From Flavobacteriales bacterium (GTDB lineage Bacteria; Bacteroidota; Bacteroidia; CAIKAF01): DNA of 44,766 nucleotides. The notes beneath the pieces are model-generated. The model made no database searches and was not told the DNA's origin. It worked only from the letters and a program-made list of their open reading frames with translations. The DNA lies in NCBI GenBank assembly GCA_025055575.1, contig JANWWP010000053.1, forward strand, positions 1 through 44,766. The letters are read 5' to 3'. Positions 3,309 through 30,010 of this stretch are shown here, piece by piece. The position numbers were made by a program, and so were the translations under genes. Position 1 is the first letter of the stretch. Each line of letters opens with the position of its first letter.

Positions 3309-6300
3309 TTGCCGGGCGGCGTGTATTCGGTGGGGTCTGGCGGGGCCTTCTCCAGCGTCACAGAAGCCCTGGCCCAGATTGAACAGCGGGGGCTGGCCGG
3401 GCCGGTCACTCTCAGCCTCATAGACTCCGTCTATGCCGTATCGGCTTTTGGGGGACGGGAGGTATTTCCCTGGGTGATGGGCTCAGCTACCGGAGGTGGC
3501 CATCCTTTGGTGATTGAGGCGGCCGATACAGGATATCGTCAACTCCGGGCCTACGGGGTCCGTTTTCAAAATGGCTCGGGCAGCAACCAGCCGGTGCTGT
3601 ATCGGGTTTTTTCCAACACACTTGCCCCGTTGGCCACCACCCGCAGCGACGGACTGGTGTATCTGCTGGGCGCCAATTATGTGACCCTGCGGCGTTTCGG
3701 GTTTGTGGCCCAGACTCCTCTGAACTGGCTTGAAAGGGGTGTCGTAATAGGCGCTTCCGACGGGCAGGATGGAGCCCAGTATAATGTGGTGGAAAAATGG
3801 CGTTTGCATTTTCCCGATAATACTGGCCTGGGGGCTCTGGGCTTACAACTTTCCCGTTTTTTTTCTCCTCTTTCGCAACAGGGAACCAATTCTCACAACA
3901 CTTTCCAGGATCTGGAAATTCGGGGAGCCCTCACCGCTGTGTATCTGGCCGGAGACACCTTGATGCCCGATGAAGGCAATATTCTTGGAACTTCGGAATG
4001 CGCCCGTTTCAATCATTTTGAGTTTGAATCCCAGGGATCATCAAACACCTACCCCGACGGATTTTCAGCTCTTATCTGGATCGTTGGGGGGCAAAAAAAC
4101 TTCAAAATGTTTAATAACCGAGTCGGCTTTTGGACCCTCGGATGGGCCAATTCCAGTGCGTCATTTATCCAGCAATATGCTGTGCGGGCTGAAAGACTGG
4201 AGGGCCTCACAGAAATATACAACAACAGGGTGTTTTCTATGGGGAGCCGTTGGAATTTCCCATCCCGTCTGTTTGGTTTTTACATTCAGAGCGGCGTGCA
4301 ACCGGGCAATGAAGTGCGATTTTACAACAATATGGTGGGCGGACTCCGCACGGCATCGCAATTGACCCAAAACTCGCTGATATGCGGCATCCATGCCGAT
4401 GCCCTCAACGCGGATGCCCTCCACCGGATATACAACAACACGGTGGGCTTCCGGGGCGCCACGACCTACGGAACCGCCTGCCTAAGCCTTAAAAATCCAT
4501 CGGTTCATTACGATGTGCGCAACAATATTTTTGCTAACGCGGCGCTCAAGTTGGCCCCCGCGGGTCGGCCTCATCTGTGCCTCTTGGATTCTCTGGGGGC
4601 CTTTTCCAGTGGCAACGCCAGTGCGGATTACAATATCTACTACGTGACCGACACTGTGCCGGGGCACTATTTGTGCCAGTCGGGCAACAACCTACATGCC
4701 GGACTGCCCGCATGGCAGGCCGCTTCAGCCGGGATGGATGCGCACTCCGTCTCCGGCCTTCCGGCATTTTACAACGCCACCGACCTGCATGTGCTGGACT
4801 CTCTGTGCTTTGCCACAGCCGATCCTACCGTGTTCACAATGGTTTCCGAAGATGCCGACTGCCAGACGCGTCAGCCACCTCCTACAGCCGGCGCCGATCA
4901 ACCCATCCCGTGCGGCACTTGGACGGATTCTCTCATTTTGAGCCTCCCTCAGGCCTGGGGATGCACGGGTGGGGCAATCCCCCTCAACAGCACCCTGCCG
5001 CCTCCGGCTTTGGGTCTCCAATACTTTTGGGAATTCTCCAACGACACCGGCGCGTCCTGGAATGTTTTCAGCAACGGCGCGCCTCCCGTCAGTTACGTGT
5101 TAGGAGGGGAGGGGCTCCATTTTCGATTGAGGGCTGAGTGCAGTCTATCAGGTCAAACTTCGGTGAGCGCGCCCCAGTACGTGGAAGTATTTCAAACCTC
5201 CTGTTCCTGCCCTTCTGCTTATCCCATTGTAGCCCCCACCCAAGCCGACGGCGAAGAAATTGTTCAGGTATCGGTGGGCGCTATGACTAACACTTCGGTG
5301 TGTCAGGACACGGCGGCCGGTTTTCTATCCCAGCCCGGACGCTACAGCAATTTCACCCTGGTGCCAGGGCCCTCCGGCCTACCCGGCACTTTCATTCCCT
5401 TTACGCTGTGGCAACAAAGCTGCGCTTCGGTGCCTCAGCCCAATGGTTTTCAGCTTTATGTGGATTGGAATGAGGACGGGGATTTTTTAGATGCCAACGA
5501 ACGGGTGTTCAATCAGCCCCAAAATGTAGTGGGCAACCACCAGCAATCGGGCATTTTTCAGATACCTTATGGCGTGTCGCCCGGCAGCAAACGCATGCGG
5601 GTGGTCAACATCCGGAAGACATTCCCCACATCTATCAATTATGCTCATTCCCCCGCCGGTTTTCAATATGGGGAAGTGGAAGATTATTGCTTCACCGTGA
5701 CCCCGCCTATACCTTGCTCTGCCCCGCCAGCTGGACTGGACATCGCGGTCAGTACCACGGAGTTCTGCCTTGGCCAGACCTTGACGTTCCACCTTACAGA
5801 TACCTTAACTATTGGGGGCCTGTCCTTCAAATGGCAGACATTGGAGGCCGGGGACACAATTTGGCAAACCTTCAGCCAATCGCCTCCGCCGGCTTATTTA
5901 CCCATCACAAGTCCCGAAGCCCGGCTGATTCGATGCGTCATCACCTGTAATCACACAGGCCTTTCTTACAGCACGCCCGTCAAAGTTTTGCAGCCCAAAG
6001 GGGGGTGCCGTTGCCTGAATTATTCTCCTTTCGCACCTCAGTATGGCCAAGGGGAAGATATTGTGGAAGTGCATCTGGGTTCCATGTTTAATCCATCCGA
6101 TTGTCCGGATTCCCTGGGCGGGAGCACATCTCTCATAGGCCGCTACAGCGACTTCGCCGGACTGGTGCCGCCGGCCCAAACAACGCCCGGGGATTCTCTT
6201 TCATTTTTGCTGAAAAATGCCGCCTGCAATGGGGTTTTATATCCCAACGGGTTTTTAATCTTGGTGGACTGGGATGAGGATGGCCAATTTGAATTGGATG

Positions 6301-7571
6301 AGACGGTTTACACCCAGCCGGAAAGCGCATTAGGCCCCCAGGAGTTGCAAGGGTCTTTCCTGACGCCTTTTTCAGTCACGGCCGGCATCAAGAGAGTGCG
6401 GATTATCAACCGCCGGGGTTATTTTCCATGGTCCATTCAAAACACCGATTATTACTACGGTGAAACCGAAGATTATTGTTTGAAAGTGCTACCTATCCCT
6501 GTATGCTCGGCGTTGGAGCCCGTGGAAATAGTGTCCACGCCCGCCAACGTTTGCTACTCTTCCAATCTAACCCTGAGTCTCTCCCCCACGGCCCATATCC
6601 AATTTCAGAATTTGCAATTTCGGTGGGAAGTGAGCCTGGACAGTGGCGCCACTTGGCAGACCTTCGCCCTCACATATCCCCCCGTGCAAAAATTTCAAAT
6701 CGGGCCGGCCTGGTTCCGTTGCACTATCCGGTGTGCGGCCAGTGGCGACAGTCTGGTGACTCCTATCCTGAAGCTGCCTTTTCATCCTAACTGTTCCTGC
6801 TTGCCGTATCCTGTTTCAGAAGCCTTGAATCCCACTGGTTCGGACATCCTGGACGTGTATTTCGGAGAGACCCACGTGAGCACGCCTTGTGGTCAAATAG
6901 TACCAGGCTCTGAAAATACATTGGGTCAGTTTACTTCTTATTTGGATTTGACACCCCCCATCCAAGTGGAAGCGGGCAAAAGTTATCTCCTGACTGTCAA
7001 GGTAGGCACCTGTAATTATTACGTCAAAGCCGGTGTGAAAGTGTTCATGGACTGGAACCAGGATTTGGACTTCAGCGATTATGGGGAAACGCTTCTGGCC
7101 TTTGGCCCCACGCTTCTGAGCCCGGGCATTCTTCTCTCCACCGGCACCGTGGTCACCATTCCACCAGATATTTCCGTTTCGTCGCTGAGAATGCGGGTAG
7201 TTTGCAAAGAAACAGAGCAACTGGCTTATGTTTCGCCGGTTGGATACTATACTTTTGGCGAAACGGAGGATTACTGTATTCAGGTCATGAATTCAGTAAG
7301 CGCTCCCACCCTACCTTTTGTACATGAAGGGGACAGGGCTTTCCTGAGCGGCGACTTTTTGAACTTGATATTAAATGGCGCGGATGGTTATGGGCCTCTT
7401 ATCCTGAGTCTTTTTGATATGTCGGGGCGTCAGGTGATGAACCATAAGATGTTGTATCAGGGGCCAGGCGTTTATACCGCACCAATGCCAGACTTATCGA
7501 CGGGTCACTATTTGCTGCAGTGGCAATATCCGGGCCATGCCGGAAGACAGAAAATCCAAAAAATATATTAA
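3309..7571 (+). CDS. Large T9SS-exported protein: beta-helix region, three GEVED domains, sorting domain (separated from its N-terminus by a stop)
   Basis: This is the main part (1420 codons) of a secreted surface protein. Roughly 3309-4900 resembles a right-handed parallel beta-helix, with repeated short Asn/Gly turns such as IYNNRV, FYNNMVGG and IYNNTVGF. Three modules spaced about 790 bp apart follow, each with an Ig-like stretch and a GEVED domain: VDWNEDGDF to GEVEDYC (about 5460-5690), VDWDEDGQF to GETEDYC (about 6262-6480) and MDWNQDLDF to GETEDYC (about 7047-7276). The last 90 residues form a T9SS type A sorting domain (LFDMSGRQV, then QKIQKIY at the end). The ATG at 3309 is only the first one downstream of the TAA at 3018. 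A product started there lacks a signal peptide and should not be exported. Function is probably adhesion or matrix binding, by inference. Confidence 0.75.
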   Translation: MPGGVYSVGSGGAFSSVTEALAQIEQRGLAGPVTLSLIDSVYAVSAFGGREVFPWVMGSATGGGHPLVIEAADTGYRQLRAYGVRFQNGSGSNQPVLYRVFSNTLAPLATTRSDGLVYLLGANYVTLRRFGFVAQTPLNWLERGVVIGASDGQDGAQYNVVEKWRLHFPDNTGLGALGLQLSRFFSPLSQQGTNSHNTFQDLEIRGALTAVYLAGDTLMPDEGNILGTSECARFNHFEFESQGSSNTYPDGFSALIWIVGGQKNFKMFNNRVGFWTLGWANSSASFIQQYAVRAERLEGLTEIYNNRVFSMGSRWNFPSRLFGFYIQSGVQPGNEVRFYNNMVGGLRTASQLTQNSLICGIHADALNADALHRIYNNTVGFRGATTYGTACLSLKNPSVHYDVRNNIFANAALKLAPAGRPHLCLLDSLGAFSSGNASADYNIYYVTDTVPGHYLCQSGNNLHAGLPAWQAASAGMDAHSVSGLPAFYNATDLHVLDSLCFATADPTVFTMVSEDADCQTRQPPPTAGADQPIPCGTWTDSLILSLPQAWGCTGGAIPLNSTLPPPALGLQYFWEFSNDTGASWNVFSNGAPPVSYVLGGEGLHFRLRAECSLSGQTSVSAPQYVEVFQTSCSCPSAYPIVAPTQADGEEIVQVSVGAMTNTSVCQDTAAGFLSQPGRYSNFTLVPGPSGLPGTFIPFTLWQQSCASVPQPNGFQLYVDWNEDGDFLDANERVFNQPQNVVGNHQQSGIFQIPYGVSPGSKRMRVVNIRKTFPTSINYAHSPAGFQYGEVEDYCFTVTPPIPCSAPPAGLDIAVSTTEFCLGQTLTFHLTDTLTIGGLSFKWQTLEAGDTIWQTFSQSPPPAYLPITSPEARLIRCVITCNHTGLSYSTPVKVLQPKGGCRCLNYSPFAPQYGQGEDIVEVHLGSMFNPSDCPDSLGGSTSLIGRYSDFAGLVPPAQTTPGDSLSFLLKNAACNGVLYPNGFLILVDWDEDGQFELDETVYTQPESALGPQELQGSFLTPFSVTAGIKRVRIINRRGYFPWSIQNTDYYYGETEDYCLKVLPIPVCSALEPVEIVSTPANVCYSSNLTLSLSPTAHIQFQNLQFRWEVSLDSGATWQTFALTYPPVQKFQIGPAWFRCTIRCAASGDSLVTPILKLPFHPNCSCLPYPVSEALNPTGSDILDVYFGETHVSTPCGQIVPGSENTLGQFTSYLDLTPPIQVEAGKSYLLTVKVGTCNYYVKAGVKVFMDWNQDLDFSDYGETLLAFGPTLLSPGILLSTGTVVTIPPDISVSSLRMRVVCKETEQLAYVSPVGYYTFGETEDYCIQVMNSVSAPTLPFVHEGDRAFLSGDFLNLILNGADGYGPLILSLFDMSGRQVMNHKMLYQGPGVYTAPMPDLSTGHYLLQWQYPGHAGRQKIQKIY

Positions 7572-8707: not shown

Positions 8708-9748
8708 ATGAAGATGAGAATTTTCCTTGCTTGCATTCTGCCGATTCTTCCACTGCAGGCTCAAATCACGATTGAGCGTTACCATTTGGGCATTCTGACC
8801 AACATTCAGCATGTGATGGCGGAAGACACGGCGCATCTGGCCGTAAGTCCCGGAAATCCCGGACCGGCCCAGACCTGGGATTTTTCCACTTTGGCCAATC
8901 ATCTCCAGGATACTCTGCAATTTATGCCGCCCGCCGGCCAGCCCTGTGCATCGGATTTTCCCACAGCCACTTTTGCCCTAAAAATCTCAGATGAAATTGT
9001 TTACGGAAAAGATGATAATAATTCTTTAGAATTTTTGGGCATTTGTTCAGATCCCTTAGGAACAGGAAATGTAGCTATAAAAATGCTCCCACCAGAACGT
9101 TGGATGATTTTTCCGTTGCAATTCGGCAGTTCCTGGACAGATGTGTCACGGCTGGCGGTGCAGATTGGAACTCCGAGCCCGCCGCCGGATTCCATCAGGG
9201 TGGTTTCCACCGTTCAACGTGTCAACCTTGTGGATGGATGGGGCCAGGTGGTGACGCCTTTGGTGACCCAACCCTGCCTGAGAGTGAAGACGACAATATA
9301 CCAAGTAGACAGTGTTTTTATTAAAGTTTTGGGTGTATGGACACTCTTTGGAACCCCTGAAGTGACGGAGGATACGGAATACAATTATTTTCCACAGAAC
9401 GGTTTCCCGGCGGTGTCCCTGAGCATCAACAACACCGACGGTCAGTTAAATTTTGTTAAATATTCCCTGACCACAAATGCCTCCACGCCCTCGGAAGCCT
9501 TGCAGGCTGAAGTGACGGTGGGCCCTAATCCTTTGCAAGGCGGCCCATTGCAGGTGCGCGGCGCCACGCCGGGAAGCCGATTGATGGTGTACGACATGGA
9601 GGGGCGCTGCCTGGGCGCTTTCTATCTGCCTGCTGCTGAGACCTATCTGGAGGTTCCGGATTGGCAGGCCGGTGTGTACCTGTATCGTATTGTTTCTGAG
9701 AAAGCAGAAACAATGCAACAGGGCCGATTGGTTTTAATGGGAAATTAA
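8708..9748 (+). CDS. Secreted protein with T9SS type A sorting domain
   Basis: This 346-aa protein starts with a clear signal peptide (MKMRIFLACILPILPLQAQ) and ends with a T9SS type A sorting domain: VGPNPLQGGPLQV, LMVYDMEGRCLG and GVYLYRIVSE. It should cross the inner membrane by Sec and the outer membrane by the type IX (Por) system, to be released or anchored on the surface. The central 240 residues are beta-rich with no domain I can name; they resemble other Bacteroidota T9SS cargo in the WDFSTL segment. The gene is intact, unlike its upstream neighbours. Its stop codon overlaps the convergent DNA ligase gene by 4 bp, leaving no room for a separate terminator. Confidence 0.85.
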   Translation: MKMRIFLACILPILPLQAQITIERYHLGILTNIQHVMAEDTAHLAVSPGNPGPAQTWDFSTLANHLQDTLQFMPPAGQPCASDFPTATFALKISDEIVYGKDDNNSLEFLGICSDPLGTGNVAIKMLPPERWMIFPLQFGSSWTDVSRLAVQIGTPSPPPDSIRVVSTVQRVNLVDGWGQVVTPLVTQPCLRVKTTIYQVDSVFIKVLGVWTLFGTPEVTEDTEYNYFPQNGFPAVSLSINNTDGQLNFVKYSLTTNASTPSEALQAEVTVGPNPLQGGPLQVRGATPGSRLMVYDMEGRCLGAFYLPAAETYLEVPDWQAGVYLYRIVSEKAETMQQGRLVLMGN

Positions 9749-11388
9749 AAATTATCCCCCGCGCTTTTCTGGGGATGAGATTCTGAATTTCCGGTGGGCT
9801 GGCGCTGAAGGGCCAGATTTTTTAGATGCTCCAGCCCATCGGCTTCCTGGGCTTTTTTGTCGTGCCGCCATCTGAGGATGCGCGGGAAGCGTACGGCCAC
9901 CCCGCTCTTGTGGCGGGAACTGCGGTGGATGCCTTCGAAAGCCAGTTCAAAAACCAACTCGGGTTTCACGCGGCGCACAGGACCAAATTTTTCAAGGGTA
10001 TTGTGTCGGATGAAGCGGTTCACTTCTTCCATTTCTTCGTCTGTGAGTCCACTGTAGGCTTTGGCAAAAGGCACCAGCTGGCCTTCGTGCCACAAGCCAA
10101 AGGTGAAATCGGTACAGAGACCGGCCCTGCGCCCATGACCGGACTGGGCGTACAGAAGCACGGCATCCACCGTGAGGGGGGCCACTTTCCACTTCCACCA
10201 GACTCCCCGTTTTCTTCCGCCGTGGTAAGGGGCCTCCTTGTTTTTGATCATCAGGCCCTCCGCGCCGTAGTTCTTTGCCTTTTCCCGTAAATCCAGCGCT
10301 TCTTCCCAGCTGGCGGGCTGCAAAAGGTTGGAAGCGCGCAGCACAGGGTGCCGGGCCGGCAGGAATTCTTCCAGCATGCGACGCCTTTCGGCAAGGGGCC
10401 ATGTCCGGAGGTCCTGACCTTCCACACTGAGCAGGTCGAAAGCCAGAAAAATGGCCGGGTAGCGCCTTCGGATATCGGGGCCGGGTTTTTTTCGTCCGAT
10501 TCTTTTCTGCAACTCTTGAAAGCTTTGGATCTGGCCCTCGCGCCAAATCAGAATTTCTCCATCCAGGACCCCATCAGACGGCAGGTCTGCCACAGCTTCC
10601 ACAATTTCCGGGAAAGCGGAATTCAGCCATTCCCCGCCTCTGGACCACAGGTCGCAACGGCCCTGGACCCGCAGCAGTTGTCCGCGGATGCCATCCCACT
10701 TATACTCAAAAAAAAAGGTATCCACAGAAAGACTTCCCACATCGTCCAACTCCAGCGGATGGGCCAGGCAAAAAGGAAACGGCCTGTGAAGGTCGGCTTC
10801 TTCTTGGTCCTGTTCTGAAAAGGCAGAATCCATGTCCAATGGATTCCAATCTCCACCCAGACGGCGGGCCACAAAGTCAGGGTCAAGTCCCCGGCTTAAA
10901 GCAAAAGCCTGCAGGGCCATCCGTTGCGCTACACCAATACGAAAACCGCCGGTCAGGAGCTTATTGAAAACAAAACGTTCTGAAGGACGAGTCCCACGCC
11001 ATACGTAAAGGATAAAATCTCGGGCCCTTTCCGGATTCGAAACCAGGTTCTGAAGTGTGGTTAAAACTTCCGTGAGGGAAGTGGGTAGGGCTGAAGGTGT
11101 GGCATTGCCCGGGAAAGGAATGAGAAGCGCCAGGGTTTCGGCGAGATCGCCTGTGAAGTGGTAGGCTTCTTCCACCAACCAAAGCGGGAGGCTGGCCTCC
11201 TTGGCGGCCAGGGAGCGAAGTTCTGAACTGTTGAGGCATCTTCGGGGACGCCAGCCGCTCAGAAGCGCCAGAGCGCACAAAGCATCCCGATCCGGAACGG
11301 ATTGAAAATAACGGACCAGCAGGTCCAGTTTTTCCTGTGTACTGGTGGTGCCGTCCAATTGGCTGATGAGTGCGGCAAATTTTTCCAT
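9745..11388 (-). CDS. ATP-dependent DNA ligase (ligase-associated damage-response type)
   Basis: This 547-aa enzyme seals DNA nicks using ATP. The adenylation motif EYKWDGIR gives the active-site Lys230. LDGEI (motif III), EGLMIKN (motif IV) and WWKWK (motif V) follow, with an OB-fold C-terminal domain and an N-terminal helical DNA-binding domain (residues 1-200). I start it at the ATG at 11388: this leaves a good AGGAG site 5-9 bases upstream, and the 61 further codons open upstream lie inside the exonuclease gene and look unlike protein. It follows the exonuclease by 7 bp. Bacteria of this type also have NAD-dependent LigA, so this is probably a repair enzyme. Confidence 0.93.
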   Translation of the reverse strand: MEKFAALISQLDGTTSTQEKLDLLVRYFQSVPDRDALCALALLSGWRPRRCLNSSELRSLAAKEASLPLWLVEEAYHFTGDLAETLALLIPFPGNATPSALPTSLTEVLTTLQNLVSNPERARDFILYVWRGTRPSERFVFNKLLTGGFRIGVAQRMALQAFALSRGLDPDFVARRLGGDWNPLDMDSAFSEQDQEEADLHRPFPFCLAHPLELDDVGSLSVDTFFFEYKWDGIRGQLLRVQGRCDLWSRGGEWLNSAFPEIVEAVADLPSDGVLDGEILIWREGQIQSFQELQKRIGRKKPGPDIRRRYPAIFLAFDLLSVEGQDLRTWPLAERRRMLEEFLPARHPVLRASNLLQPASWEEALDLREKAKNYGAEGLMIKNKEAPYHGGRKRGVWWKWKVAPLTVDAVLLYAQSGHGRRAGLCTDFTFGLWHEGQLVPFAKAYSGLTDEEMEEVNRFIRHNTLEKFGPVRRVKPELVFELAFEGIHRSSRHKSGVAVRFPRILRWRHDKKAQEADGLEHLKNLALQRQPTGNSESHPQKSAGDNF

Positions 11389-11392
11389 GGTT

Positions 11393-11397
11393 CTCCT
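11393..11397 (-). promoter_or_regulatory. Shine-Dalgarno site that decides the ligase start
   Basis: AGGAG lies 4 bases before the ATG at 11388 and overlaps the exonuclease stop codon (TAG, 11396-11398). Strong sites of this kind are uncommon in Bacteroidota genes, so it supports 11388 as the start and suggests coupled translation of the pair. Confidence 0.7.
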
Positions 11398-12385
11398 ATT
11401 CGGCCTCGGCAGGATTGAATGCAGTTTCCAGAGGGCGGGCATCCAGTCCGTTTTCGGAAAGATACTGGGCCATGGGCCCGGAGAATCCATGGGTGACGCG
11501 CACGGAAGTCGCCTCTGTGTGCCGGATGGTAGCAAGCAACCCAGGCCAGTCGGCATGGTCGCTGATTCCAAATCCCTGATTCAGATTACGGCGCCGTTTG
11601 AACCCCCGAATACTGACCCAACCGGAGCAGGCGGCCGTGACCACCGGCCCTTTGAGGCGGCGGAGAACGGCCTCTTCAGCCGCTGGAGGCACCAGAATGA
11701 CGCCCGTTTCACCCCGGTTTTCCAGAGCGGAAAGCGGAGAAAAATTGCCCACCGGGACGCCCGCCTGTTGGAGGGCCTGACTCATCTCTGCCACGGCCGG
11801 ATGCACATAGGGAACAATCCAAGCTTCGTTGAGGAGGCGGGTGATGCGTTGGGCTTTTCCCAGGGAATACACCGACAATACTACATGGCATCCGGCTTGG
11901 AGCTGATGTGCGGCCCAGCTGCAGAGTCTTTCGGCCAGAAGGGGCGCGGCCTCCCACTGAAACACCGGTAGGCCGAAAGTGCTTTCGGTTATAAAAACAT
12001 GGCAGCGCTGGGGGTCTATGGGAGAGGAAATACCGTCGGCGGAAGTTTTATAGTCTCCGCTCACCACCCACACTTCGCCTTTGTGTTCCACCCGCACCTG
12101 AGCGGATCCTGGGATGTGCCCTGCGGGATGGAGACTAAATCGGACACCCTGGATTCGAAAGGCTCTGGCATAGTCTTTTTCTTCCACCCAAATGTGGGCG
12201 CCCAGCCGGGCTCGTAGCACCGCGGCCGTAACAGGATGGGCCAGATACGCGCGATGGCCAGGCCGGGCATGATCGCTGTGGGCGTGCGTGATGATGGCTT
12301 TTTCCACAGGTCTCCAGGGATCAATGTACACATCTGCAGCCGGCACATACAGGCCCTCCGGTCTGCGTTCGATGAGCTCTGCCAT
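11396..12385 (-). CDS. Ligase-associated DNA damage response exonuclease (MBL fold)
   Basis: This 329-aa protein belongs to the metallo-beta-lactamase/beta-CASP group of nucleases (SNM1/Artemis-related) that is regularly encoded beside an ATP-dependent ligase. The metal motif HAHSDH is at residues 34-39. AGHIPGSAQV, VSGDYK, TESTFGLP and GISDHADW follow as the later metal and CASP motifs. It should trim DNA ends before sealing by the ligase, which is known for the family only by association. In many bacteria the set also includes an Lhr-like DEXH helicase and the PdeM endonuclease; neither is in this window. The gene lies 18 bp after the DUF2079 gene and 7 bp before the ligase start. Confidence 0.9.
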   Translation of the reverse strand: MAELIERRPEGLYVPAADVYIDPWRPVEKAIITHAHSDHARPGHRAYLAHPVTAAVLRARLGAHIWVEEKDYARAFRIQGVRFSLHPAGHIPGSAQVRVEHKGEVWVVSGDYKTSADGISSPIDPQRCHVFITESTFGLPVFQWEAAPLLAERLCSWAAHQLQAGCHVVLSVYSLGKAQRITRLLNEAWIVPYVHPAVAEMSQALQQAGVPVGNFSPLSALENRGETGVILVPPAAEEAVLRRLKGPVVTAACSGWVSIRGFKRRRNLNQGFGISDHADWPGLLATIRHTEATSVRVTHGFSGPMAQYLSENGLDARPLETAFNPAEAE

Positions 12386-22377: not shown

Positions 22378-23673
22378 ATGGAAGAGAATGTACGCATAGG
22401 CATCATCGGCCTGGGCTACGTGGGCTTGCCCTTAGCTGTGGAATTTGCAAAAAAATATCCCGTGGTGGGCTTTGACATCAAACCTGAGCGGGTGAAGGAA
22501 CTCAATGAAGCCCGGGATTCCACGCTGGAAGTGGACGAAGCTGAACTCCGCTCGGTGGTGCGCCCGTCAGCGCCGGATGTGCGTGGATTGTTCTGCACGA
22601 CGGATCTTGAAAACCTTCGGCCGTGTAATTATTACATCGTTACGGTGCCTACGCCCACCGACCGACATAACAGACCGGACCTTACCCCCCTCTACAAGGC
22701 CAGCGAAACGGTGGGCAAGGTGCTCAAAAAAGGCGATATCGTCATTTACGAATCCACCGTGTATCCGGGCGTCACCGAAGAAGAATGCGTGCCTGTGCTG
22801 GAGCGTGTATCGGGCTTACGGTTCAACCAAGACTTTTTTGCCGGTTATTCGCCGGAAAGGATCAACCCCGGTGACAAACAACATACCGTTACGAAAATCC
22901 TTAAAGTGACCTCCGGTTCCACCCCCGAAGTGGCCCGCCGCGTGGATAATCTGTACAGAAGCATCATCACCGCAGGCACCCATCTGGCTTCTTCCATCAA
23001 GGTGGCGGAGGCAGCCAAAGTGATAGAAAATGCCCAGCGCGACATCAACATTGCATTCGTCAATGAACTTTCTAAAATTTTCAGGCTGTTGGGGATTGAC
23101 ACGCGGGAAGTGCTGGAGGCTGCCGGCACCAAATGGAATTTTCTGAAGTTTTCACCAGGACTTGTGGGCGGGCATTGCATCGGCGTGGATCCCTACTATC
23201 TGGCTCAGAAAGCTCAGGAAGTAGGCTATCATCCTGAAATCATTCTCGCCGGTCGCCGTCTCAACGATAGCATGGGCAAATATGTGGCGGATGAAGCGGT
23301 GAAATTGATGGTCAAGAAAGGAATCCCGGTGCGAGGTTCCCGGAGTCTGATCCTAGGTTTCACTTTTAAGGAAAATTGCCCGGACGTCCGTAACACCCGT
23401 GTGATTGATATTTACAAAGAACTAAAAGATTACAACCTGGAGGTGGATGTTTTAGATCCCTGGGCTTCTGCTGCCGAAGTGGCTCATGAATATGGCATCC
23501 CTATCAAAACAGCCCCCGACCAACTGTCTGGACGTTCCTATGATTTGGTGATTCTGGCGGTGGCTCATAAAGTCTTTGCGGATATGGATGTCCGGAGTTG
23601 GTTGAAGTCTCCGGGTGTTCTTTGGGACGTGAAAGGTTTTCTTCCGGCGGAATGGGTGGACGCTCGGTTGTAA
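22378..23673 (+). CDS. tviB: Nucleotide-sugar 6-dehydrogenase, TviB/WbpA type
   Basis: This 431-aa enzyme oxidises the C6 of a UDP-N-acetylhexosamine to the uronate, using NAD. It starts with the Rossmann motif [20 protein letters not shown]. It carries [38 protein letters not shown] and the catalytic Cys in [16 protein letters not shown], and ends with [15 protein letters not shown]. The pattern is very close to Salmonella TviB, which makes UDP-GlcNAcA for the Vi antigen. The next gene is the matching 4-epimerase, so the pair should supply UDP-GalNAcA or a related sugar. It begins 25 bp after asnS and may share its transcript. Confidence 0.92.
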
Positions 23674-23724: not shown

Positions 23725-24723
23725 ATGACGGCCGCTCTCCAGAATAAAAAGATTTTGATAACGGGCGGCGCAGGCTTCATAGGGTCCCATCTCGTGGAGA
23801 AATGCCTTCAGGAAAAGGCGGGTCTGGTGCGGGTGATGGACAACTTTTCCACCGGCTTTCGGGCCAACCTGGAAGGCCTGTCGGCTTTTCCCGCTTTCGA
23901 ATTGCTGGAAGGCGATATTCGCGATTTTGAGACCTGCCGGAGGGCTTGTGCCGGGGTGGACATTGTGTTCCACCAGGCAGCTTTGGGCTCGGTGCCGCGG
24001 TCCATCCAGGATCCCCTCACCACCCACGCCGTCAATGCCGATGGCTTCCTGAACATGATGCACGCAGCCCGGGAAGCCGGTGTACGGCATTTCATTTACG
24101 CTTCTTCCTCCTCAGTGTACGGAGACAATGAAGACCTGCCCAAAAGAGAAGAAAAAACAGGAAACCCTCTTTCGCCTTATGCCCTCACCAAAGCCCTCAA
24201 CGAAAAATACGCGGAGGTTTTTCACAGGTGCTATGGGTTTCGTTCTGTAGGGCTGCGGTATTTTAATGTGTTCGGTCCGCGCCAGGACCCTCAAGGACCC
24301 TATGCCGCCGTGATCCCCCGATTCATTTTCCGCTGTCTGGCGGGAGACCCTCTTGAAATCTATGGAGATGGCTCCATTGAACGGGATTTCACCTACGTGG
24401 ACAATGTGATCCATGCCAACCTGCTCAGCCTCCAGGATGAAAAACTTCCCGGCTGTACAGTGTTTAACGTCGGTTGTGGCACCTCGGCCAGCATCCTCTC
24501 TTTGGCCCAAAAGGTAAAGGCCTTGTATGAGGAGGCCACAGGCCAACCCAGCCGGTCAGATATTGAGTTTTGCCCGCCCAGACCGGGAGACATACTGCGC
24601 TCAGAAGCTTCCATCGAAAATATTCGGTCGCGTCTGGGTTATGAGCCTTTGGTTTCTATGGACGAAGGGTTGCGCCGAACCCTGCGGTGGTTTATTGGTA
24701 AGAAAACTCCTGCCACTGTGTGA
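23725..24723 (+). CDS. tviC: UDP-sugar 4-epimerase, TviC/WbpP type
   Basis: This 332-aa extended SDR enzyme inverts C4 of a UDP-N-acetylhexosamine or its uronate. It has the NAD motif ITGGAGFIGSHL, FHQAALGSVPRSI, the catalytic SSSSVYGD and YALTKALNEKY (YxxxK), then RYFNVFGPRQDP and GDGSIERDFTYVDN. These details match WbpP/TviC more than GalE. Together with the TviB-like enzyme 51 bp upstream it gives a two-step route as in Vi-antigen and WbpP-type O-antigen synthesis. No polymerase or flippase is in the window, so the glycan itself is unknown. Confidence 0.9.
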   Translation: MTAALQNKKILITGGAGFIGSHLVEKCLQEKAGLVRVMDNFSTGFRANLEGLSAFPAFELLEGDIRDFETCRRACAGVDIVFHQAALGSVPRSIQDPLTTHAVNADGFLNMMHAAREAGVRHFIYASSSSVYGDNEDLPKREEKTGNPLSPYALTKALNEKYAEVFHRCYGFRSVGLRYFNVFGPRQDPQGPYAAVIPRFIFRCLAGDPLEIYGDGSIERDFTYVDNVIHANLLSLQDEKLPGCTVFNVGCGTSASILSLAQKVKALYEEATGQPSRSDIEFCPPRPGDILRSEASIENIRSRLGYEPLVSMDEGLRRTLRWFIGKKTPATV

Positions 24724-24836
24724 AATAAAAACTCAATTTTTTTCTTAGAAGGCCTTTCGCTGAGCTTGGCTAAAGAATAAGGGGTCTTCGGGATCGACTA
24801 TTAGACATGTACACCGGTCATCAGGAAATCGCAGAC

Positions 24837-24844
24837 TACTTTTG
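24837..24844 (+). promoter_or_regulatory. Possible promoter -7 element close to the exosortase start
   Basis: TACTTTTG followed by C fits TAnnTTTG(C), in a 127-bp AT-rich gap after the epimerase gene. It is only 6 bases before the ATG at 24851, so a transcript from it would be almost leaderless. There is no good -33 element. Confidence 0.3.
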
Positions 24845-24850
24845 CTTCGG

Positions 24851-25492
24851 ATGTCCTCCCGTGGGGTGTTTTTGAAGAAATGGGATCGCGCTGCGGCCTG
24901 GAGCACCTGGATGTTTTTGTTAAAAATGACCACGGTGTATGGGATGTGGAAAGTTTTTCAATGGACCGGGGGCATGCCGTTACACTGGTGGGAAAGTGGC
25001 ACGGGTTGGATCGGGTGGTGGCACGATGTGTTGGCACCGGCTTTTTCATCTCTCTCGCATGAGGTGGGGAAGGCCCTTTTGAATGTTTCGCATTTCATTT
25101 TAGCGGATGTGTTGCGATTGCCCGCCGGGATGGCTTTGGAGGTTCGCGATTACAAAGGCATTCCCGAAGAATTTCGCCTTATTTGGCTTCCGGGTGCCCG
25201 CGGCATCAACATTGCGGAGAGTTGCCTGGGCATTGCCCCCATGGTGGTTTTAGCGGGTGCTGTGATTGCCTATCCCGGCCCCTGGTACCACAAACTTTGG
25301 TTCATCCCGGCGGGAATGCTGGCAGCCCAGGCCGGAAATGTGTTTCGTGTGGTGGGCTTAGTGCTCATTCAAAAGCACGTGCCCCGTGAGGTGATGTTTA
25401 AATTGAGCCACTCCTACGTCTATTTATTCATATGCTATGGCATAGTTTTTTTATGGATACGATGGTGGATACGGAAATTCGGAACACCCTAA
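24851..25492 (+). CDS. Exosortase/archaeosortase family membrane transpeptidase
   Basis: This 213-aa multi-pass membrane protein shows the three conserved residues of the exosortase/archaeosortase group in order and in membrane context: Cys125 in AESCLGIAPM, Arg166 in AGNVFRVVG and His187 in KLSHSYVYL. Such enzymes cut a C-terminal signal (for example PEP-CTERM) and transfer the protein to another molecule, and in many bacteria they sit among exopolysaccharide genes, as here. The ATG at 24851 is preferred over a TTG at 24842. The C-terminus is strongly basic and Trp-rich (WIRWWIRKF). No protein with a matching C-terminal tripartite signal is evident nearby. The exact subfamily (for instance XrtF, XrtN or XrtY) cannot be told by eye. 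Confidence 0.75.
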   Translation: MSSRGVFLKKWDRAAAWSTWMFLLKMTTVYGMWKVFQWTGGMPLHWWESGTGWIGWWHDVLAPAFSSLSHEVGKALLNVSHFILADVLRLPAGMALEVRDYKGIPEEFRLIWLPGARGINIAESCLGIAPMVVLAGAVIAYPGPWYHKLWFIPAGMLAAQAGNVFRVVGLVLIQKHVPREVMFKLSHSYVYLFICYGIVFLWIRWWIRKFGTP

Positions 25493-25505
25493 CCTCTAAG
25501 CCATC

Positions 25506-26228
25506 GTGCTGTTGAGTATCGTGGTAGCTGCCTACAATGAAGAACACACCGTGGCCGCGGTGCTGGAAAAAGTTTTTTCCGTCCCGTTGCCCAATGGGGT
25601 GGATAGGGAAGTGGTGGTGGTGGACGACTGCTCCCGCGATGGCACCTGGCAGGTTCTGGAGCGCTTTCAAAGCGACCATCCGAACTATCGGCTCCGGTGT
25701 TTTCGCCAGGCATTCAATCAGGGGAAAGGCGCTGCCTTGCGCCGGGCCATCCGTGAAGCTTCCGGGACTTTCATTCTGGTGCAGGATGCCGATCTGGAAT
25801 ACGACCCCGCCGAATACGGCCTTCTCTTGGCCCCCGTGTTGGCAGGCCATGCCGATGTGGTGTACGGCAGCCGGTTTATGGGCGGCAATCCCCACCGGAT
25901 TTTATTTTTCTGGCACAGCCTGGGCAATAAGTTTCTCACGTTTGTGAGCAACATGTTCACCAACCTGAACCTCACGGACATGGAAACCTGTTACAAACTG
26001 TTCCGGGCCGACATTATTAAAAAAATTGACCTGAGGGAAAACCGTTTTGGTTTTGAGCCGGAAGTGACGGCCAAGGTGGCACGTTTTCCCGGGGTCCGTA
26101 TTTACGAAGTAGGCATTTCCTACTATGGGCGCACCTACGCCGAAGGGAAAAAAATCAATTGGAAAGACGGTGTGCGGGCCATCTGGTGCATCCTCAAATA
26201 CAACATTTGGGCCCGCCAGCGCTTTTGA
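25506..26228 (+). CDS. Family 2 glycosyltransferase, DPM1-like
   Basis: This 240-aa single-domain GT2 enzyme is of the dolichyl-phosphate mannose synthase type and probably transfers a sugar from a nucleotide to a polyprenyl phosphate. It has the N-terminal SIVVAAYNEEHTV, VVDDCSRDGT, the metal-binding QDADLEYDP, and later DMETCYKLFR and FEPEVTAKVAR. There is no C-terminal membrane segment, unlike the GtrB form. The start is a GTG 13 bp after the exosortase stop, so it should share the exosortase transcript. The acceptor may be the lipid used in a surface glycan; this is inference from the surrounding sugar genes. Confidence 0.88.
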   Translation: MLLSIVVAAYNEEHTVAAVLEKVFSVPLPNGVDREVVVVDDCSRDGTWQVLERFQSDHPNYRLRCFRQAFNQGKGAALRRAIREASGTFILVQDADLEYDPAEYGLLLAPVLAGHADVVYGSRFMGGNPHRILFFWHSLGNKFLTFVSNMFTNLNLTDMETCYKLFRADIIKKIDLRENRFGFEPEVTAKVARFPGVRIYEVGISYYGRTYAEGKKINWKDGVRAIWCILKYNIWARQRF

Positions 26229-26242
26229 ACGCCCCTGCAATG

Positions 26243-26267
26243 TAACGTCAGAGGCATTTTGACGTTA
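26243..26267. repeat. Perfect 8-bp inverted repeat in the gap before the OmpA-fusion gene
   Basis: TAACGTCA and TGACGTTA are separated by nine bases in the 46-bp gap between the glycosyltransferase stop and the GTG at 26275. It could form a hairpin in the RNA or be a protein-binding palindrome. No T-run follows, so an intrinsic terminator is less likely. Confidence 0.5.
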
Positions 26268-26274
26268 ATAGGGT

Positions 26275-27537
26275 GTGGCAGTGTCTCGGCCGAATTATTC
26301 TTTTAGGGGTTTCTGGAGGTGGCGTGTCTTTTGCTTGGAATGCGCGCTGTGTGTTTTCAGCTTCTTGCCCATCGCGGCCCAGGATCTTTACTTATCCGGC
26401 AGTTATGACCTGGAAAAACTGGTGCGCAATCTGTTTCTGGGAACGCGGGATGTGGAGGTGTCCAATGTCCGCTTCACAGGCGCTAAAGGCAGCCTGGGGA
26501 TATTTTCTTACAAAGGAGGTAAACTCGGCATCGAGGAAGGGTTTGTGATGACCACCGGCGGCCTCAGCGGCATTCGGGGTCCCAATAAAAACCCGGTGTC
26601 CGGTTCCGAAAACCACCAGAGCGGCGATCCCGATTTGGATGCCATTTCAAAAGGCCGATCCATGGATGCTGTGGTGTTGGAGTTTGATTTTGTGCCGGTG
26701 TCGGAATACATCAGTTTTCGCTATGTGTTTGCCAGCGAAGAATATCTGGAATTTGTGAACCGGGGCTACAACGATGCCTTTGGTTTCTTCCTGAGCGGGC
26801 CCGGCATCCAGGGCAAGCTCAATCTGGCCACCGTCATGGGCGGCCAGGATGTGGTGAGCGTGAACAGCATCAACGATGTGGAAAATCCTCATCTTTATAT
26901 AGACAACGGCTCCACCAGCGACCCCAAGACCCAGGCCAACCCGCGACCCATCTACGATAAAAACATTCAGTTCGATGGTTTCACGAAGGTTCTGAAAGCG
27001 CGCGCCAAAGTACAACCCTACAAAACCTACCATATCAAACTGGCCATTGCGGATGTGGGCGACCGCTTTGTGGATTCGGCTGTTTTTCTGGAAGCCCGCA
27101 GCTTCATATCCGAAGGCGAAAAGCTGCCGCCGCCGCCCGGATATCGGGGCAGCACAGCCGCCCCCGGCGACAAAAAGCGCAAGCCCCTGCCCCGCAGCGC
27201 GCTGGTGGAATTTGACTTCGATTCCTGGAAAATCCCCGATACCTCGCGCGACAAGCTCTATTTTATGTGGCGCGACATTAAAGACTATCCCCATTTGGCC
27301 CGCATCGAAATTCGTGGGCACACCGACTTCAAAGGCACGGATGAATACAACAAAAAGTTGTCTGAAAAACGCGTGGCCAGCGTGGTGGAGTTCCTCGTGA
27401 AACTGGGTTATCCGCGCGAACATATCATTCTGCGGGAAGGGTTGGGCGAGAGTTTCCCCAAAATGCCCAACGACACCGACGAGGGAAGAGCCCGCAACCG
27501 CCGGGTGGAAGTGCGTGTGCTCTGGAATGGTAAATGA
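26275..27537 (+). CDS. Choice-of-anchor-L domain fused to an OmpA-like peptidoglycan-binding domain
   Basis: This 420-aa exported protein has a signal peptide ending near FLPIAAQ, a choice-of-anchor-L domain (about residues 40-275; EGFVMTTGG, FRYVFASEEYLEF and NDAFGFFLSGPG are typical), a proline-rich charged linker (about 285-305), and a C-terminal OmpA domain (about 308-418) with VEFDFDSW, IRGHTDFKGTDEYNKKLSEK and ARNRRVEVRV. The anchor-L domain is usually found in T9SS-secreted proteins; here a peptidoglycan-binding module takes the place of the T9SS tail, suggesting a periplasm-facing or outer-membrane anchor. The start is a GTG; no in-frame ATG lies near. It follows the glycosyltransferase by 46 bp. 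Confidence 0.85.
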   Translation: MAVSRPNYSFRGFWRWRVFCLECALCVFSFLPIAAQDLYLSGSYDLEKLVRNLFLGTRDVEVSNVRFTGAKGSLGIFSYKGGKLGIEEGFVMTTGGLSGIRGPNKNPVSGSENHQSGDPDLDAISKGRSMDAVVLEFDFVPVSEYISFRYVFASEEYLEFVNRGYNDAFGFFLSGPGIQGKLNLATVMGGQDVVSVNSINDVENPHLYIDNGSTSDPKTQANPRPIYDKNIQFDGFTKVLKARAKVQPYKTYHIKLAIADVGDRFVDSAVFLEARSFISEGEKLPPPPGYRGSTAAPGDKKRKPLPRSALVEFDFDSWKIPDTSRDKLYFMWRDIKDYPHLARIEIRGHTDFKGTDEYNKKLSEKRVASVVEFLVKLGYPREHIILREGLGESFPKMPNDTDEGRARNRRVEVRVLWNGK

Positions 27538-27598
27538 AAATTTACGGACATAGGCCCATCGGTTAATTCAAAAAATTTTTCTGTTTCATGCAGGGTTA

Positions 27599-27606
27599 TA
27601 CATTTG
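27599..27606 (+). promoter_or_regulatory. Promoter -7 element for the PUR-domain gene
   Basis: TACATTTG followed by C fits TAnnTTTG(C) and lies 18 bases before the ATG at 27625, the same spacing as the element before the ABC-F gene. The TTTTTCTG stretch at about 27576-27583 could serve as a weak -33 element. Confidence 0.5.
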
Positions 27607-27624
27607 CCCCAGTTTCGGGAACCG

Positions 27625-27921
27625 ATGGAAGATAATGTTTTTAAAAAATCAGTGCGCGCTGGGCGCCGGACTTATTTTTTTGATGTGCGGCAAATGCGCG
27701 ACGGCCAGATGTACATTTCGCTGACGGAAAGCAAACGCACCCGCCACGAAGATGGCAGCGTCAGCTATGAAAAGCATAAAATTTTTCTGTACAACGAAGA
27801 TTTTATCAAATTCACCGAAGCCCTTAATGAGGCCATGAGCTTTGTGCGGGCCAACAATCCCACCCCGGTGGAGGAAATGTATCCTGCGGCCGGCGATACG
27901 GATTATCCGGCCGAAGGCTGA
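27625..27921 (+). CDS. DUF3276 / PUR-domain nucleic-acid-binding protein
   Basis: This 98-aa protein is a single PUR-like domain, widespread in Bacteroidota and spirochaetes and related to Borrelia BpuR. The pattern YFFDVRQMRDGQMYISLTES, followed by a basic loop (KRTRHEDG), SYEKHKIFLY and EDFIKFTEALNEA, is characteristic. Members bind single-stranded DNA or RNA, and a regulatory or nucleoid role is likely. The ATG at 27625 fits both the family start and the promoter at 27599. The acidic tail (EEMYPAAGDTDYPAEG) lies outside the fold. It is convergent with dnaG. Confidence 0.85.
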   Translation: MEDNVFKKSVRAGRRTYFFDVRQMRDGQMYISLTESKRTRHEDGSVSYEKHKIFLYNEDFIKFTEALNEAMSFVRANNPTPVEEMYPAAGDTDYPAEG

Positions 27922-28039: not shown

Positions 28040-30010
28040 TTATTCCAACACCACGCGGCCCAGGGCTTCGGCGATTTCCTTTTTGGTTTGTTCCCAGGCC
28101 TGTATTTGGCCCAGCGTGAGGTATAGGGTGTCCTGGTCCAGCGGTTTTCGGAGCTGTTCACGGCTTTGTCTCAAATAGTGGCGCACGCGCTCCTCCCGCA
28201 GGGCGTTGAGCAAATGCAGAGTGTTGGAGGACACCACGTCCTTTTCGTGGGTCACATCCACGCCGAAGCGGTTCTGCCAGCCGGGGCTCACTTTTTCCTC
28301 CGCATCGGCGCAAAGCGGGATGATCCAGCGGCGCACGTCTTCCGGGGCCTCATGCATCAGGTAGTCAAAAGCCGTTTCATGCACCGGCAGAGCTTCCTGA
28401 TAGTAGCTTTCCAGGAGGGCCAACACCGTGTCGGCCTGAGGGCACAAAAAGGTATAATGGTCTTCGGACAGTTGCTGCCGCACAAAAGCCCACACGGTGG
28501 TCTGGTGGCGGATGGGAATATTTTCCTCACTGGAAGGCGCCAGGTAACGCATGGTGAGCGAACCATAGAGGATGAGCCAGCGCAGCAGGGCTTTCTCTTC
28601 CGGGTAGTCATGGGCCTCTGCCGGGGCGGTTGTGGATTCCGAGGCGTCGGGGGGTGCGGCCGTGCCGGCTGAGGCTTCCGGCCCCTGGGGCCGGGGCAAT
28701 TTTTTTTCCACATAGTGCCGCCGGGCGCGGTTCAGTTCCTGGATCACCAGGTTTTCGTTCAGCCCGGTGAGGCGTGCCATATTGAGGGCCAGTTCGTTGC
28801 GCGCGAATCCGTCCGGAATCAGGGCGATGCTTTCCACGATTTTGCGCAGGGCCTCGGCCCTGCGCAGGGGATCGGGGCCGGCCTGTTCCAGCAACAGCGC
28901 CGCTTTGAAGCCCACAATATCGCGGGCTTCACTTTCCAGAAAGCGCATCAGCGCCGCCGGGCCGATTTTTCGGGCATAGCTGTCGGGGTCTTCCCCTTCC
29001 GGAAACAGCACCAGGCGCACCTGCAGGCCCTGCTCCAGCATGAGGTCGGCCCCGCGCAGGGCCGCCAGGATGCCCGCTTTGTCCCCATCGTAGAGCAGCG
29101 TCACTTTGTGGGTGAAGCGCCGGATGAGTTTGATTTGTTCCTCGGTGAGGGAGGTGCCGCTGGAGGCTACCACATTTTCCACGCCGGCCTCGTGCAGGGC
29201 GATCACGTCCATGTAGCCCTCGGCCAGGTAGCAGTTGTCCTGCCGCACAATGGCCCGCCGCGCCAGGTGCAGACCATAGAGTGTGCGGCTTTTGGAGTAA
29301 ATGTCGTTTTCGGGAGAATTGAGATATTTCGGGGCGTTGTCCGAGGGCCGGAGGATGCGGCCGCCAAAGCCCACAATACGACCCGTCAGACTGTGGATGG
29401 GGAAAATGACCCGGTCCCTGAAGGCGTCGTACACCTCGCCGCCGCCCTCTTTTTGCTTGAGCAGTCCCAGATGCAGGGCCAGGTCTTCGCGGTAGCCGGC
29501 CTGGCGCAGGGCTTCCCGCAGGCGGTAGCGGTCCGGCGGGGCAAAGCCCAACTGAAATTTTTCGATCACGCTGTCGCTAAGGCCGCGTTCTTTCAGGTAC
29601 GCCAAGCCCACGGCGGGCTCTTCATGCAGCAGAGCCCGGAAGTGCCGCGCCGCAAATTCGTGGATCAAATACAGGCTTTCCCTCCGGCTTTCCTCAGCCT
29701 GAAGCTCGGGCGTGGCCGCTTCTTCCCGGATGTCCACCTGGTACTTGCGGGCCAGCCAGCGCAGGGCGTCTTCGTAGCCCAGTTTTTCATGCTCCATCAC
29801 AAAGCCCACGGCATCGCCCGCCTTGCCGCAGCCGAAGCACTTGTAAATGCCCAGGGCCGGCGACACCACAAAGGAAGGCGTCCGCTCGTCGTGGAAGGGA
29901 CACAAGCCCAGAAAGCGCGGCCCGCTCCGCTTGAGCCGCACAAAATCGCCCACCACTTCCTCCACACGCGCCAGCGCTTTGATCTGATCCCGGGTTTCAC
30001 GCGCTATCAT
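28040..30010 (-). CDS. dnaG: DNA primase
   Basis: This 656-aa enzyme makes RNA primers for replication. The N-terminal zinc-binding domain has the CHC2 ligands C37, H40, C58 and C61 (LCPFHDERTPSF, YKCFGCGKAGD). The RNA polymerase core follows with FGGRILRP and the TOPRIM motifs AEGYMDVIALHEAG and LLYDGDKAG. The C-terminal 200 residues form the helicase-binding region, with a low-complexity Ala/Pro/Thr linker around residue 450. Length and order are normal. It lies downstream of the ABC-F and ACMSD-like genes on the same strand, but a 235-bp AT-rich gap suggests its own promoter. Its stop faces the PUR gene. Confidence 0.97.
   Translation of the reverse strand: MIARETRDQIKALARVEEVVGDFVRLKRSGPRFLGLCPFHDERTPSFVVSPALGIYKCFGCGKAGDAVGFVMEHEKLGYEDALRWLARKYQVDIREEAATPELQAEESRRESLYLIHEFAARHFRALLHEEPAVGLAYLKERGLSDSVIEKFQLGFAPPDRYRLREALRQAGYREDLALHLGLLKQKEGGGEVYDAFRDRVIFPIHSLTGRIVGFGGRILRPSDNAPKYLNSPENDIYSKSRTLYGLHLARRAIVRQDNCYLAEGYMDVIALHEAGVENVVASSGTSLTEEQIKLIRRFTHKVTLLYDGDKAGILAALRGADLMLEQGLQVRLVLFPEGEDPDSYARKIGPAALMRFLESEARDIVGFKAALLLEQAGPDPLRRAEALRKIVESIALIPDGFARNELALNMARLTGLNENLVIQELNRARRHYVEKKLPRPQGPEASAGTAAPPDASESTTAPAEAHDYPEEKALLRWLILYGSLTMRYLAPSSEENIPIRHQTTVWAFVRQQLSEDHYTFLCPQADTVLALLESYYQEALPVHETAFDYLMHEAPEDVRRWIIPLCADAEEKVSPGWQNRFGVDVTHEKDVVSSNTLHLLNALREERVRHYLRQSREQLRKPLDQDTLYLTLGQIQAWEQTKKEIAEALGRVVLE

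Follow-up and report, generated by a model that had tools for sequence, protein, structure and literature searches.

The window, a contiguous stretch of 44,766 nucleotides from a Flavobacteriales bacterium, contains a gene in which a choice-of-anchor-L domain is joined to a C-terminal OmpA-like domain. A profile search of a sample of 395 class genomes found the same domain order at no fewer than 40 loci, in at least 39 genomes and 13 families. Choice-of-anchor domains are named for occurring with different surface anchors. Here the cell wall is the predicted anchor of such a domain, and the name fits: one head, several anchors. The presence of a predicted peptidoglycan-binding OmpA domain as the anchor in many genomes suggests that the same head works both in the periplasm and outside the cell. 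The reading that we favor, with moderate confidence, is that the window protein is soluble and periplasmic and serves as an adapter tethered to the wall, with a jelly-roll head for binding; the domains and contact residues are seen in the sequence, and export, binding and role are what we infer.

Domain structure and predicted wall anchor of the fused protein

The features of the fused gene and its surroundings are given in Table 1. The preliminary description had proposed the joining of the two domains, and both matched far above their cut-offs: NF038133 with 234.1 bits (cut-off, 27) and PF00691 with 53.9 bits (gathering score, 27.2). No further Pfam family was found in the protein at E 0.01, and hence no barrel domain was detected. 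An OmpA porin is defined by an N-terminal membrane barrel. The N-terminal part of the window protein is the NF038133 domain, modeled as a beta-sandwich, and the protein is not an OmpA porin by that definition.

Table 1. Features of the fused gene and of neighboring genes in the window
Feature	Position	Strand	Basis or remark
TviB-like UDP-sugar dehydrogenase	22378-23673	+	581 of 592 bits
TviC-like epimerase	23725-24723	+	
Exosortase-family gene	24842-25492	+	TIGR04178, 51.4 bits (cut-off 23)
GT2 glycosyltransferase	25506-26228	+	PF00535, E 2.4e-31; 46 bp upstream of fused gene
Choice-of-anchor-L/OmpA gene	26275-27537	+	420 aa, GTG start, TGA stop at 27535-27537; ORF list, translation, domains, full-length relatives
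Likely signal peptide, residues 1-35, ending ..LPIAA before Q36	26275-26379	+	By eye from sequence
Choice-of-anchor-L domain, residues 50-277	26422-27105	+	NF038133, E 1.2e-69; predicted beta-sandwich
Linker, residues 278-312, PPPP stretch and basic residues	27106-27210	+	Alignment A1; pLDDT <50 at 296-306
OmpA-like domain, residues 313-409	27211-27501	+	PF00691, E 2.4e-14; closest solved sequence relative 5u1h
Peptidoglycan-contact residues D351 (27325-27327), N359 (27349-27351), R366 (27370-27372)	27325-27372	+	Invariant in alignment A1; PorE spacing
DUF3276	27604-27921		Downstream of fused gene
dnaG	28040-30010	-	Downstream of fused gene

By eye, the N-terminus of the window protein combines basic and hydrophobic stretches with a likely cleavage site before Q36, and the protein is probably exported. 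A hydrophobic stretch followed by A/G/S/C-Q ahead of the domain was recognized by eye in 39 of the 40 fused proteins, the exception being that of G098; a written pattern for this feature flagged only 29 of the 40 rows. The lipobox pattern had no match in the window protein and was matched in only 1 of the 40 fused proteins (G001), where it lies ahead of the hydrophobic stretch. At the other end, about 5 residues remain beyond the OmpA domain, which leaves no room for a T9SS tail; no sorting tail of type A or B was found in the window protein, and no Pfam tail was found at E 0.01. The replacement of the sorting tail by an OmpA domain, as described previously, was therefore confirmed. Exosortase substrates carry a C-terminal motif followed by a hydrophobic helix and a basic tail. 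By eye, this signal is absent from the window protein, which ends in its OmpA domain (RRVEVRVLWNGK).

A crystal structure shows the C-terminal domain of PorE bound to a peptidoglycan stem peptide: the hydrogen bonds come from the side chains of three residues, Asp576, Asn584 and Arg591, that are conserved across OmpA-family proteins (excerpts of PMC7192894). D351, N359 and R366 of the window protein have the same spacing (8 and 15), which bears out the usual peptidoglycan-binding pattern noted earlier for this domain. Among the 40 fused proteins, the D and the R are present in all and the N in 38, so that 38 of the 40 have all three. The N is replaced by S in G157 and G186, both of which belong to the six proteins with a T9SS tail described below. 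On these residues, the OmpA domain of the window protein is predicted to bind the cell wall.

The solved sequence relatives of the C-terminal domain include Outer membrane porin F (OprF; 5u1h, the closest), YiaD, YfiB and Pal. In proteins of these types, what is fixed to the wall is a barrel or a protein bearing a lipid, whereas the partner of the OmpA domain in the window protein is a choice-of-anchor-L domain. The OmpA part of the full-length model was of low confidence (block means, 56-77) because the alignment was shallow.

The genome of the window contains six choice-of-anchor-L genes. The five paralogues share 41-44% identity with the window protein over the matched part; four of them have a T9SS type B tail match, which exceeds the cut-off of 35 in three and reaches 27.2 bits in one, and the fifth extends to a contig end. 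The statement in the preliminary description that this domain usually occurs on T9SS cargo fits this genome, in which the window gene, without a T9SS tail, is the exception. The head is thus common to the window protein and to the choice-of-anchor-L proteins that are T9SS cargo (NF038133), but the window protein has an OmpA domain in place of the tail.

When residues 36-282 of the head were folded alone with 60 aligned sequences, a beta-sandwich with a mean pLDDT of 91.3 and a pTM of 0.90 was obtained. The best PDB match of this model in Foldseek was a MAM-Ig-FN1 chain (E 6.6e-4). With a second aligner, the best match, meprin MAM (Z 7.6, rmsd 4.5 over 142 residues), was tied with a Cry toxin domain, and further matches included CBM61 (Z 7.4), CBM4, glucanases and others, all at the background level for sandwiches. 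When the full-length and domain-only models were used as fold queries, the sandwich matches were again at background level only. Since the matches are at the level of unrelated sandwiches, any ligand class is a guess; the modeled shape of the head fits a binding domain and names no ligand. Choice-of-anchor A, which is a different domain, is found in Acanthamoeba cellulose-binding lectins (excerpt of PMC6541295).

As the favored wall-tethered adapter, the window protein would be exported by Sec, and its OmpA domain would hold it non-covalently to the peptidoglycan stem peptide through a meso-DAP contact set as in PorE. The jelly-roll head would reach from the wall towards the outer membrane and may bind a partner near it, either a glycan or an outer-membrane protein. 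The partner would in this way be held to the cell wall.

Distribution of the fusion and relatives with a T9SS tail

In a first set of 60 genomes, including that of the window, the two-domain protein was seen in eight (G000, G001, G002, G006, G007, G019, G025 and G052), and a ninth (G048) was recognized by profile search only. The profile of the eight fused proteins was searched in the 395 class genomes, with up to four candidates scored per genome and matches listed to about E 2e-76. At all 40 listed fused loci, separate profiles of the two domains match within one ORF. The fused count leaves out matches that stop within the OmpA part or short of it, for example G021:C80 (to 334) and G043:C10 (to 308). 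No fused gene was detected in a set of 80 named loci, some of which are short contigs. In a phylum-wide sample searched at E 1e-88, 1 of 296 genomes matched, which was the window's own; this result says little about other classes, because the threshold was stricter than that of the class search and the 20 genomes listed as unmatched all belong to the same class. Three loci from metagenome-assembled genomes (MAGs), two of Flavobacteriales and one of Bacteroidetes, contain an ORF of 424 residues that ends in an OmpA domain and lies about 8-8.5 kb from an unfused choice-of-anchor-L gene (L063:824-2095, L080:385-1656 and L098:239-1510).

A tree was built from 102 choice-of-anchor-L domains, of which 40 are fused and 62 unfused. 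All fused domains lie beyond one branch with an SH-aLRT support of 99, corresponding to one change; the tree was made by a quick method without bootstrap, is unrooted and has unfused rows picked by similarity to the window protein. The four-member clade of the window adjoins the unfused side (support, 81). Because of this position and the way in which the unfused rows were chosen, the fusion may have had two origins. The idea that the domains were joined only recently, within the window's genus, was rejected in view of the full-length relatives in 13 families and the single change in the tree.

Most of the fused proteins (34 of 40) have at most 16 residues after the OmpA domain. The remaining six (G116, the second copy of G366, G264, G249, G157 and G186) have 105-111 residues past it. 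These extra residues match TIGR04183, the T9SS type A sorting domain, with scores that exceed the 23-bit cut-off in five of the proteins and reach 21.7 bits in one. The six proteins form one group in the tree (support, 93), which is joined next by the tail-less protein of G098 (support, 98), and G366 holds both kinds, with and without the tail. In this minority of relatives, the type A tail after the OmpA domain would carry both domains out of the cell. Given the predicted tails of these six relatives, an OmpA domain is not always equivalent to a periplasmic location in this fused family. At the corresponding loci (L193, L194, L196, L198, L199 and L200), a peptidoglycan-binding domain is predicted to be secreted. 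This sub-branch is the part most worth following, since it raises a testable question on the role of a peptidoglycan-binding domain on a secreted protein. A broader idea, which we consider speculative and rather unlikely, is that the fused proteins form an ancient lineage of recognition proteins linked to the wall, with one head used at two sites: inside, on the cell's own peptidoglycan, and outside, through the sub-branch with the T9SS tail, where the peptidoglycan-binding module could grip exposed or shed peptidoglycan of the same or other bacteria.

PorE of Porphyromonas gingivalis is a periplasmic multidomain lipoprotein that is essential for the T9SS. It belongs to the OmpA proteins that bind peptidoglycan, and it also binds PorP, by way of which it reaches a type B cargo (excerpts of PMC7192894 and PMC9143113). 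The C-terminal OmpA domain, the three contact residues and their spacing are common to PorE and the window protein, but the window protein has another head and no lipobox match. The PorE model NF052230 gave 49 bits on the window protein against a cut-off of 600, with the OmpA part alone covered, and the protein is not a member of the PorE family. It could instead be an accessory of the PorE kind, tying T9SS parts or the T9SS-exported choice-of-anchor-L paralogues to the wall. The reach of PorE to a type B cargo and the type B tail matches of four of the five paralogues argue for such a role, as does the gene before the fusion in G019, whose product carries a T9SS type A tail. The low PorE score points the other way, and 158 of the 197 genomes with a match at E 1e-62 in the class search had no two-domain match among the matches listed. 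Consistent T9SS neighbors were also not seen. Clustering of the ORFs that lie up to about 6.5 kb from the 40 fused genes revealed no fusion-specific neighbors across families, and none that would indicate a partner; the largest cluster covers 5 families and 11 genomes, and it is a single-linkage cluster with scattered position and strand, one member of which is a response regulator. The accessory role is judged improbable.

In the set of papers searched, the phrase 'choice-of-anchor L' did not occur; 20 papers had 'choice-of-anchor', and one of these, on iron response with passages on choice-of-anchor J, also had OmpA. OmpA-like domains together with type IX secretion were found in three papers of the set, two on PorE/PG1058 and one on a database.

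Exosortase genes and the neighborhood of the fusion

The fused gene follows exosortase and glycosyltransferase genes, as had been noted: the GT2 gene is directly upstream and is preceded by an exosortase-like gene. The exosortase call is over the superfamily model TIGR04178 and under the XrtX (91.4 of 170) and Pfam EpsH (16.2 of 25.7) models. The TviB/TviC-like pair, for a nucleotide-activated uronic acid, is located just upstream of the exosortase-family gene.

The preliminary description had suggested from this gene order that the fusion is a cell-wall-linked scaffold for the surface system encoded upstream and had named a common fusion unlinked to exosortase genes as the finding that would count against it. 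Such a picture was largely what emerged. Among the 40 fused loci, an exosortase gene two genes upstream was found only in the window and in G001, which is of the same genus. An exosortase gene within about 9 kb was found at three (the window, G001 and G069), a count that could be low since 13 of the 40 stretches are cut on one or both sides by contig ends or record limits. Where the stretch extends 7.4 kb or more in both directions (27 loci), there are two such cases. In G069, the exosortase is over the XrtX cut-off and lies about 4 kb from the fusion, but rpsA (S1 ribosomal protein) and two ORFs lie between. The GT2 gene adjoins the fusion in the window, G001 and G006. In G006, which like G002 is of the window's family, a guanylate kinase gene stands in the place of the exosortase, and the exosortases of this genome lie on different contigs. 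In G002, neither GT2 nor exosortase was found near the fused gene. Conserved linkage was therefore not observed. The proximity is nevertheless above chance by a rough estimate based on two independent neighborhoods (about 0.19 loci expected over 33 genomes; P for at least two, 0.015).

In whole genomes, an exosortase is more frequent where the fusion is present. Exosortases were detected anywhere in the genome in 33 of the 39 listed fusion genomes and in 198 of the 356 others (p 4.7e-4). The corresponding numbers were 33/35 and 172/303 for high-quality genomes (rounded values) and 4/5 and 2/11 for the window's family (p 0.036). Four of the six fusion genomes without a detected exosortase are <90% complete. 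Exosortases, however, follow families: in family f33 they are present in all 14 named genomes, of which 7 have the fusion and 7 have none listed, whereas in family f20, for which no fusion is listed, they are present in 1 of 11. The whole-genome co-occurrence is thus confounded by clade, and relatedness may explain it. The positive association and the two neighborhoods above chance are the best points left for the scaffold proposal and do not prove it; on this evidence the exosortase link is mainly a genus-level neighborhood. A scaffold dedicated to the upstream exosortase/glycosyltransferase system is not supported, given the wide distribution of the fusion, and is considered even less probable than the PorE-kind accessory.

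The least probable of the alternatives is an outer-surface location reached by an unrecognized route, where the OmpA domain would bind peptidoglycan fragments or neighboring cells; most paralogous heads in the genome match T9SS tails and six relatives combine OmpA with such a tail, but the window protein itself stops shortly after its OmpA domain, with no known export tail. The periplasmic, wall-tethered adapter remains the preferred reading.

A general exosortase-GT2 unit was also considered and rejected: of 39 exosortase loci (1.8-3.3 kb), only those of the window and G001 had the window's GT2 beside the exosortase. Scans of 24600-27700 for promoters and terminators gave results at or below the shuffle level. 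An inverted repeat with perfect 8-bp arms (TAACGTCA/TGACGTTA) separated by 9 bases is present at 26243-26267 of the window, within the 46-bp gap between the GT2 and fused genes; its counterpart is imperfect in G001 (by eye), and none is obvious in G006.

The start of the fused gene is abutted, on the same strand, by a gene of about 280 codons in four genomes that belong to one family (L177:8074-8913, L183:10183-11034, L185:8036-8896 and L188:2630-3472). The one member scanned, that of L177, is weakly HflK-like (32.5 of 159.4 bits). Elsewhere in the window, a 1420-residue ORF at 3309-7571 has three GEVED domain matches, and on the minus strand at 9745-12385 an ATP-dependent DNA ligase adjoins a protein with a sub-threshold metallo-beta-lactamase match.
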